Shown: positions 33,584-36,429 of the stretch, one piece after another | How the letters are laid out: every line of letters starts with the position of its first letter | How positions within the stretch are numbered: position 1 is the first letter of the stretch | The notes under the pieces: generated by a model | Seen by the model: only the letters and a program-made list of their open reading frames with translations | Databases searched by the model: none | What the model was told of the DNA's origin: nothing | Source of the DNA: Sulfurospirillaceae bacterium | Lineage (GTDB): Bacteria > Campylobacterota > Campylobacteria > Campylobacterales > Sulfurospirillaceae | Length of the DNA: 64,000 nucleotides | Assembly (NCBI GenBank): GCA_028684065.1 | Contig: JAQUGO010000003.1 | Coordinates: forward strand, 246,171-310,170 | Direction: 5' to 3' | Made by a program: the position numbers and the translations under genes

Positions 33584-34522
33584 TTAGCGTTTTTGAGCTA
33601 AAAATGTGTTTATTTTGTCTTTTATATTTTGAGAGACTTTGACTTCAAGTTCTAAAATAGACAGTGGAATATAAAAGTTTATCATTTTCACAGCATCTTT
33701 TTGTGTGGTTAAAATAGAGGTTGCTCCATTCTCGTGAAGTAGATTAAGGAGCTCATCTTCATGATACATGTAATGATCTCTAAAAGTTACTTTTCCAATA
33801 ACATTAGGGGGAAGGTATTTATCAAGGCGGCTAGGTTTCGAGATAGCTGTTACCAGAAGCATTTTTTCAGTAGGATTTTGTACTGTGACATAACGATCAA
33901 AATCAATACCTTCTTCGACAATTAAATCTGCTTTAGAATATAAAAAGCGTGGTTCTCTATACGGACCACTTGGCAGACAGAAATGATTATTAGGTTCAGG
34001 ATTGGGTTTAACTAAGATATCAAATTTTTGTATAAAACTTTTTGAAAAGCCATCATCAAGAAAGATGAGTTGAGTTCCTAGTTTTTTAGCGTATTGTATA
34101 GCTTCAATACGATCTTCACTAACAATAACAGTGGCGTGTGGAAGGGATTTTGCAAAGAGCATAGCTTCATCGCCACTTGCTCTAGCATCACACTGAATTT
34201 GGCCTTCTTGTGAAACCAAGACTAACCCTTTTGAACCTCTGCCATAGCCTCTTAAAATGATGGCAACAGAGGTATATTCTTTTGCTAAAGTAATGCACAA
34301 TGGTGTTTTGCCATTGCCCCCAACAGTAAGATTGCCAATACTGATAATAGGAATTTTCGATATAAAAGGCTTTTTAGGGTTAATAAAACGTTTGTACAGA
34401 ACCACAAAACAATAAAAGGCACTCAAGGGGAGGAGAAGATACGAGATAAATCGCTGAAAAAATGATGTGGGATGGAAAAGATAAGTTTCCACCCACAATA
34501 CAAGTTTAGATTTATTAAACAC
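33584..34522 (-). CDS. lpxK: Tetraacyldisaccharide 4'-kinase LpxK
   Basis: About 312 residues; lipid A kinase at the inner face of the inner membrane. A hydrophobic N-terminal helix (about 25-45) is followed by the P-loop region ISIGNLTVGGNGKTPL. The start is uncertain: GTG at 34522 gives MFNKSKLVLW, close to known family N-termini, while TTG at 34534 adds four residues. Both overlap the end of the DegT-family gene. kdsB in the same block serves the same lipopolysaccharide pathway. Confidence 0.92.
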   Translation of the reverse strand: MFNKSKLVLWVETYLFHPTSFFQRFISYLLLPLSAFYCFVVLYKRFINPKKPFISKIPIISIGNLTVGGNGKTPLCITLAKEYTSVAIILRGYGRGSKGLVLVSQEGQIQCDARASGDEAMLFAKSLPHATVIVSEDRIEAIQYAKKLGTQLIFLDDGFSKSFIQKFDILVKPNPEPNNHFCLPSGPYREPRFLYSKADLIVEEGIDFDRYVTVQNPTEKMLLVTAISKPSRLDKYLPPNVIGKVTFRDHYMYHEDELLNLLHENGATSILTTQKDAVKMINFYIPLSILELEVKVSQNIKDKINTFLAQKR

Positions 34523-35648
34523 GGCTCTTAGCAATTTCTTTTATTTGATCACAAATATGTTGAACTTCTTTATCGCTGAGGCTTGAATAAATAGGAAGAG
34601 AAAGAATTTGTTGATAATTACTAAGTGCTTTAGGAAAGTCATTGACTCTTAAACCATATTTATGTTTGTAATAACTTAAAAGATGAATAGGAATATAGTG
34701 AAGTGCTGTAAAAATTCCTCTTTCTTTTAACTCTTTTGCAAAATTGTCTCTATTCTTATCAATTTTAATAATATATTGTGAATAAATGTGGTCGCCTTTT
34801 TTAAGAGGGGTGCTTACATGTGGGCAAGAAGCAAGCTCTTTATCATACATTTCGGCAATTTCCATTCTGCGTTCTATAAAACTATCATTTTTCTCCAATT
34901 GACCTATGGCATAAGCAGCATTAAGTTCGTTAAGATCATATTTGAGGCCAATATCAACAACATCGTAAACATAGCCAATATTACCAAATTTATCCCAGCC
35001 TTCACTGACGATGGCATGGTTACGCAACAATCTCGCGCGTGCACTTAACTCTTCATCTTTGGTAGTCATCATTCCTGTACTTGAAATAGAGTTATGTGAT
35101 TGAGGATTAAAGCGAAAAACTGTAATATCTGCGCCTGTTGATCCAATTTTTCTGTTTTTATAGGTACCACCTAAAGCTTCCGTTGCATCTTCAATAATTT
35201 TAATATCATATGTTTGTGCTAAATCATAAATTCGGTTCATATCGGTAGGTTGTCCTGCAACATGAGAAATAAAAGCACCTTTGAGTTTTTTTGCTTTATT
35301 GTTTTTTAAAATACTTTCGAGCTGATCAATGTCAATATTGAAATCATCTTTATTAATATCAACAAAAATAGGCTCCGCATCAAAATGCCTAACAACTTCA
35401 GCGACGGAAGGGAATGCATTAACGGAACAGATAATTTTATCACCACGTTTTAAATCAAGTGCGCACATAGCAAGATGCATAGCCGCTGTACCATTGCATG
35501 TAGAAATAGCATCTCCACAGTCGGTATATTTGATAAATTCTTTTTCTAATTGGTCTACTTTACCATTTTTTTCAAGCTCAAGGACTTCATTTATAAGCGC
35601 TCTTTCTCGTTGGTCAATAAATGGTTTGTAAAATGGTATTTCTTTCAT
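34515..35648 (-). CDS. DegT/DnrJ/EryC1 (sugar aminotransferase-like) protein lacking the PLP lysine
   Basis: 377-residue fold-type I protein of the DegT/DnrJ/EryC1/StrS family. It keeps the phosphate-binding CNGTAAM (51-57) and the pyridine-ring aspartate D154 (IIEDATEALGG). At the position of the Schiff-base lysine, where aminotransferases read FNxxKxITTG, it reads FRFNPQSHNSISSTGMM (178-194), with S184/H185 and no lysine nearby. In the ColD 3-dehydratase a histidine replaces this lysine, so a dehydratase-type or non-transaminase activity is possible; loss of activity is the other option. It sits between nadE and lpxK, suggesting a surface-sugar role. Confidence 0.85.
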   Translation of the reverse strand: MKEIPFYKPFIDQRERALINEVLELEKNGKVDQLEKEFIKYTDCGDAISTCNGTAAMHLAMCALDLKRGDKIICSVNAFPSVAEVVRHFDAEPIFVDINKDDFNIDIDQLESILKNNKAKKLKGAFISHVAGQPTDMNRIYDLAQTYDIKIIEDATEALGGTYKNRKIGSTGADITVFRFNPQSHNSISSTGMMTTKDEELSARARLLRNHAIVSEGWDKFGNIGYVYDVVDIGLKYDLNELNAAYAIGQLEKNDSFIERRMEIAEMYDKELASCPHVSTPLKKGDHIYSQYIIKIDKNRDNFAKELKERGIFTALHYIPIHLLSYYKHKYGLRVNDFPKALSNYQQILSLPIYSSLSDKEVQHICDQIKEIAKSRV

Positions 35649-35661
35649 TATGTATTTTCCT

Positions 35662-36429
35662 TTATTTGACAGTTGCTAAGTTAGCAATGGTTGGTAATTT
35701 ACCTTTAAAACGGTTGGCTTCAATACGTTGCATAATCATTTCCACAAGACCTTTATCAAAACCGTTAGCAACAAGTTCTGTTGGAGACAATTTGTTTTCA
35801 CTATGTGCTATCAATACTTTATCAATTTGAGCATAGGTAAAGCCCATTTCATCTTCATCACTTTGACCTTCCCATAAATCGGCACTCGGCGCCTTTGATA
35901 AGATGGATTCAGGGACACCAAGATACGCTGCAAATTCAAAAATTTCAGTTTTATACAGCTCACCAATAGGATTAATAGCACAAGCAATATCACCAAAAAT
36001 AGTTCCATAGCCCAAAAGAATTTCACTTTTATTGCTTGTTCCTAATACAAGCGCATTTTCTCTAGCCGAAATATCATAAAGCGTAGCCATTCGCATACGT
36101 GCACTAAAATTCCCTATACGTAGCTTTGTTGCTTCTTTGTCTTTAAAATAGGTGTCAACCAAGTTTCCAATAGGTGCTTTTTCCGTTTTAATATTAAATT
36201 TTTCACATAAGCTTTGTGCATCTTTTAAGCTATTTGGACTTGAGGTTGATGAAGGTAAAAAAAGACCTAGAAAAGAGGAACTACCAAACGCTTTTTGCGC
36301 TAATATAGCAACTACGGCAGAGTCAACACCACCACTAATACCTAATACCACTTTAGATAAGCCTGCTTTTCGGACTTCATCTTGTATGAAATGGATAAGA
36401 AATTTTTCGATTGATTCGTATTTTGACAC
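35662..36429 (-). CDS. nadE: NAD synthetase (ammonia-dependent)
   Basis: 255-residue enzyme forming NAD from deamido-NAD, ATP and ammonia. The ATP pyrophosphatase P-loop is GISGGVDSAVVA. It lacks a glutaminase domain, so it uses free ammonia. The start is GTG, eight bases after AGG. It is probably the first gene of the minus-strand block to kdsB; a TATAAT lies at 36471-36466, without a clear -35. Confidence 0.95.
   Translation of the reverse strand: MSKYESIEKFLIHFIQDEVRKAGLSKVVLGISGGVDSAVVAILAQKAFGSSSFLGLFLPSSTSSPNSLKDAQSLCEKFNIKTEKAPIGNLVDTYFKDKEATKLRIGNFSARMRMATLYDISARENALVLGTSNKSEILLGYGTIFGDIACAINPIGELYKTEIFEFAAYLGVPESILSKAPSADLWEGQSDEDEMGFTYAQIDKVLIAHSENKLSPTELVANGFDKGLVEMIMQRIEANRFKGKLPTIANLATVK

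Follow-up and report, generated by a model that had tools for sequence, protein, structure and literature searches.

A DegT-fold protein family encoded next to lpxK in Campylobacterales mostly lacks the Schiff-base lysine

The locus and its DegT-fold gene

In the window, that is the whole stretch of 64,000 nucleotides that was analysed, the genes nadE, a DegT-fold gene and lpxK follow one another, and then argB, thrC and kdsB (Table 1). The DegT-fold gene encodes a protein of 377 amino acids that matches the Pfam model PF01041 (DegT_DnrJ_EryC1) over its full length (residues 15-369, E 1.1e-86). Its AlphaFold model has a pLDDT of 83 and a pTM of 0.84, and comparison with solved structures led to GDP-perosamine synthase (Z 43.8), ArnB (UDP-Ara4N transaminase, Z 43.5), PseC (Z 43.3), E1 (Z 40.8) and other DegT proteins, the first two being the best matches in both sequence and fold. 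The protein is thus a member of the DegT/DnrJ/EryC1/StrS fold, and the complete fold that an earlier note on this DNA had described is confirmed. ColD is absent from the 50 fold matches listed, which says nothing against a likeness to ColD.

Table 1. Features of the DegT-fold gene and its neighbours in the window.
Feature	Position	Strand	Basis
DegT-fold gene without the lysine, 377 aa	34515-35648	-	PF01041 match, AlphaFold model and fold matches
Codon of S184 (aligns with ArnB Lys188)	35097-35099	-	DNA reading and ArnB alignment
Codon of H185 (residue after S184)	35094-35096	-	DNA reading and ArnB alignment
Codon of D154 (equivalent of the Asp contacting PLP N1)	35187-35189	-	role of the equivalent Asp170 (PMC5936713)
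Family motif K67-R-G-D-K71, directly before beta strand 71-75	35436-35450	-	conservation and model secondary structure
Family motif R87-H-F-D-A-E92, directly before beta strand 92-96	35373-35390	-	conservation and model secondary structure
Family motif K120-K-L-K123, start of beta strand 122-128	35280-35291	-	conservation and model secondary structure
lpxK (tetraacyldisaccharide 4'-kinase), next gene downstream	33584-34534	-	20-bp overlap of its first possible start with the DegT gene end
nadE, upstream neighbour of the DegT gene	35662-36429	-	old lpxK neighbour in genomes without the family

Among the NCBIfam models the top match was TIGR03588, which describes PseC (UDP-4-amino-4,6-dideoxy-N-acetyl-beta-L-altrosamine transaminase; H. 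pylori structure 2FNU). While both proteins share the same fold at 24% identity, the window protein reaches only 294 bits against an equivalog cut-off of 423.5. It further differs from PseC by the absence of the Schiff-base lysine, by a shortened N-terminal loop and by its position next to lpxK.

Distribution, phylogeny and selection

When about 85,000 species genomes were scanned for relatives of the window protein, 28 close ones of at least 53% identity came up, nearly all of them named Campylobacterota; outside this phylum, which was covered by this close-relative scan, there were only remote DegT proteins of at most 34% identity. With a profile built from 20 members, we searched 397 Campylobacterota genomes and found the family in 253 of them and in 53 of 68 genera, nearly always with one match per genome. 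Its absence from 144 genomes counts against the proposed role beside LpxK. In a maximum-likelihood tree the family forms one clade (support 100) that largely tracks the host families. The family is old and single-copy in Campylobacterales and has retained the DegT fold.

Compared with three close relatives, the DegT gene shows a dN/dS of 0.033-0.041, while lpxK reaches 0.068-0.109 and nadE and kdsB are higher as well; all these values are rough, because synonymous sites are near saturation. The gene is under strong purifying selection. A decaying pseudogene is ruled out by the dN/dS of 0.03-0.04 together with the intact frames among the phylum-wide matches listed.

The Schiff-base lysine column

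We defined the lysine column by alignment to ArnB, whose Lys188 (1mdo; the Ala mutant is 4oca) falls on Ser184 of the window protein. In an alignment of 98 non-identical members, which includes added loci, this column holds S in 23, M in 20, L in 20, G in 7, K in 6, R in 5 and A in 4 cases, besides others, whereas 17 of 17 canonical DegT proteins carry the K on which catalytic sugar aminotransferases of this fold rely. Instead of the canonical FHPVK, close relatives read FNPQS-H, FNPQS-N, FNPQA-N, FSPQM-K, FNPQR-M, FSPHL-K or FSQHL-K. Since close orthologues lack the lysine as well, its absence in the window protein is beyond chance or a sequencing slip, and the earlier note was right to call it missing. 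The Schiff-base lysine is lost in nearly all family members.

Among the six K rows, three show shortened loops and align doubtfully; the certain ones are L085 from one genome of host family f2 (FSFFPDK) and L123 and L124 from genus g16 of host family f9. In this genus all four genomes examined (L123, L124, L191, L192) carry Lys at the Schiff-base column, within the motif FSFNPHK. Orthologues with Lys, which the earlier note would have taken as evidence against its reading, are confined to this one genus and the one f2 genome. L123 and L124 nest in the tree within their own host family beside sisters without Lys, and parsimony gives three changes in all, namely one loss and two regains. The lysine of the f9-g16 and f2 lineages was possibly regained, or else retained; ancestral retention is conceivable for the f2 genome, because the branching at the family base is not resolved. 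The five proteins L123, L124, L191, L192 and L085 would be the best members for probing residual PLP chemistry.

The earlier note had placed S184 and H185 together at the lysine position and had suggested, by analogy to ColD, a histidine that turns the chemistry to the formation of a deoxy sugar. A PMP-dependent 3-dehydratase of this type would agree with the missing Lys, which ColD and E1 lack too, and with the shared fold. However, both enzymes carry their catalytic His in the Lys position itself (PMC8987622), while in the present family the residue at this point varies freely, mostly among S, M, L, G, R and A. E1 and SpnQ are further marked by a four-Cys [2Fe-2S] motif around PMP. Ser184 does occupy the column, but His185 follows one residue later, and of the 98 members, which mostly lack Lys, no more than 3 carry this His. 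K (32/98), N and R are more common at column 185. A His-for-Lys replacement as in ColD, E1 and SpnQ was consequently not found; in addition, the loop corresponding to the uracil contacts is shortened. With the His off by one and not conserved, we reject a ColD-like dehydratase, a reading that we regard as extremely improbable for the family, and the window protein is almost certainly not ColD-like. Because no catalytic His replaces the Lys, we do not file the family with ColD and E1.

Remainder of the cofactor and substrate pocket

As contact reference for the pocket we employed Spr1654, a close structural homologue. There, Lys199 forms the Schiff base with PLP, Asp170 contacts N1, His173 contacts O3' and Tyr84 lies on the ring; Ser194 and Thr59 bind the phosphate, His196 and Val198 the sugar, with Glu205 and His344 as further contacts, and the Gly28*/Ile30* loop contacts the uracil (PMC5936713). 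In line with the earlier note, 53-GTAA-56 and D154 are both present in the window protein, which therefore has the Asp for PLP N1 (D154) and the Thr for the phosphate (T54). Both are largely kept among the 98 members (D154 in 93, Thr54 in 84), as are an aromatic residue, F or Y, at the ring position 79 (82) and His317, the equivalent of His344 (84), and Lys236 is present in 77.

The equivalents of the Lys, His173, Ser194, His196, Val198 and Glu205 of Spr1654 are lost or scattered across the family. The column of the O3' His reads A/D/E/Q/N, the phosphate Ser gives way to R or some other residue in about 60% of the family, the pocket His column reads N or S and the Glu205 column S or N. In the window protein R179, N181 and S190 stand in place of Ser194, His196 and Glu205, and ArnB differs from the family in the same pocket His and Glu besides the lysine. 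The N-terminal loop that corresponds to the Gly28*/Ile30* contacts is shortened in the family. Divergent members in several host families (including L136, L138 and L142) lack D154 or GTxA as well, while R-x-FDAE is still there. Judged from the alignment, this erosion bears the marks of a cofactor pocket under relaxed selection.

Since most members keep D154, Thr54 and the aromatic residue at 79, non-covalent binding of PLP or PMP may persist. The protein could then still be an enzyme, holding its cofactor in this way or via a relocated lysine (the Lys one residue later or Lys236) and acting on a substrate of the lipid A or LPS pathway. His317 and Lys236, retained in most members, the Lys at column 185 in about a third of them, and the true-column Lys of f9-g16 and the f2 genome fit such a scenario. 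However, no lysine near the site is invariant, and neither residue 184 nor residue 185 is a lysine in the window species; most members have lost the equivalents of Ser194, His196, Glu205 and the uracil loop, and the divergent ones drop D154 and GTxA but keep the rest. We thus consider a remaining enzymatic function unlikely. That the window protein is not an ordinary sugar aminotransferase is highly probable, and the family protein would no longer transaminate sugars. Pfam nevertheless files the family under DegT aminotransferases, although it lacks, overall, the residues for that chemistry.

Other DegT proteins in the same genomes

SPTLC1, a PLP-fold subunit of serine palmitoyltransferase, lacks the lysine and serves a lipid pathway without being catalytic itself. 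Because such PLP-fold pseudoenzymes are known in general, the DegT-fold family does not represent a new category. By analogy, its members might serve as non-catalytic subunits of a catalytic DegT aminotransferase, and the window genome (G000) does encode five other full-length DegT proteins (L044-L047, L049), all with Lys. In contrast, while SPTLC1 pairs with a catalytic paralogue, in 4 of 20 sampled family-bearing genomes (G183, G196, G208 and G350, 99% complete) the family member, encoded in a locus with lpxK, is the sole DegT protein. It is therefore unlikely that the protein must pair with a catalytic DegT protein, and because of these genomes we reject an SPTLC1-like partnership as a general rule. 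As an explanation of the family, we give it very little credit. Through L044-L047 and L049, G000 also has ordinary sugar aminotransferases.

Linkage to lpxK

All 104 informative loci have lpxK directly downstream on the same strand; three further loci were uninformative for the downstream gene and were left out of this number. From the DegT gene to the first possible start of lpxK the median spacing amounts to -8 nt, and the two genes usually overlap, which probably couples synthesis of the DegT protein to LpxK synthesis. The genes around the pair are less stable. Upstream lies nadE in 77 loci, mostly a DUF455-like gene in host families f9 and f4, and other genes elsewhere, and the genes beyond lpxK vary between loci as well. 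What stays constant across loci is the DegT-lpxK pair.

A DUF455-like (ferritin-like) gene takes the place of nadE in L081, L083, L084, L088, L096, L105, L107, L110 and L112, an assignment that Pfam gave for a homologue. An ORF of 375 aa directly before lpxK in L143 (2391-3518), suspected to be a hidden member, turned out to be DUF455, and L143 has no DegT gene there.

Most genomes that lack the family have nadE immediately beside lpxK; therefore, the DegT gene was either gained into this spot or cleanly lost from it. That nadE-lpxK is itself an old pair, which suggests a stable operon as a whole, and that the DegT gene was cleanly lost in several lineages would suit a mere passenger of the operon, with a partner other than LpxK (e.g., a metabolite sensor) and placed beside lpxK for expression reasons only. 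However, the adjacency to lpxK outlasts changes of the upstream and downstream neighbours, and we find such a passenger role rather improbable. Against a partnership with LpxK it can be argued that genes of a compact operon may stay side by side although their products never touch, and that the overlap makes separation costly. When LpxK sequences were compared, no residue clearly tracked the presence of the DegT-fold protein; the single weak signal, an I/F column, is phylogenetically confounded. Our literature search found no paper on a DegT-fold protein adjacent to lpxK.

The invariable position of lpxK as the next gene lends strength to two further suggestions of the earlier note, a non-catalytic partner and a link to lipopolysaccharide. 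Judged by genome context, we regard it as about as likely as not that the protein is functionally linked to LpxK or lipid A.

Family-specific conservation and proposed role

At 21 positions the family is conserved to at least 90% while canonical DegT proteins are to at most 20%; among them are R68, K71, N77, R87, H88, F89, D90, E92, N299, F303, A304, Y331 and L342. K67, K120 and K121 are also nearly invariant in the family. By this measure strict conservation has shifted to the family motifs KRGDK, RHFDAE, KKLK and NRDxFA, the last of which is located in the small domain. In the AlphaFold model the first three motifs precede or start beta strands, while the PLP motifs come after strand ends. 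The strands concerned (71-75, 92-96 and 122-128) lie side by side in the usual arrangement of fold type I, and for this reason KRGDK, RHFDAE and KKLK are predicted to make up a single basic patch, on the face that points away from the old cofactor site.

There is, in our view, about an even chance that the family is a pseudoenzyme with a PLP fold which the lipid A pathway has recruited, probably as a non-catalytic partner or regulator of LpxK. The basic patch, together with the NRDxFA segment, would then provide a partner-binding surface, the likeliest partner being LpxK or a phosphorylated lipid A precursor at the membrane, and the protein could scaffold or tune the lipid A 4'-kinase step. 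The complete proposal, a previously undescribed Campylobacterales family in which a dead aminotransferase became an LpxK accessory (scaffold or regulator) by means of a new basic patch, is tentative and, in our view, less likely than not.

A functional link to lpxK would mean that, in an entire bacterial order, a lipid A kinase comes with an accessory protein. Lipopolysaccharide assembly is probably served here without the usual aminotransferase chemistry, by a family present in much of one order. Besides, the family offers a graded pseudoenzyme series, from almost intact to ruined cofactor pockets, with the same operon position throughout.
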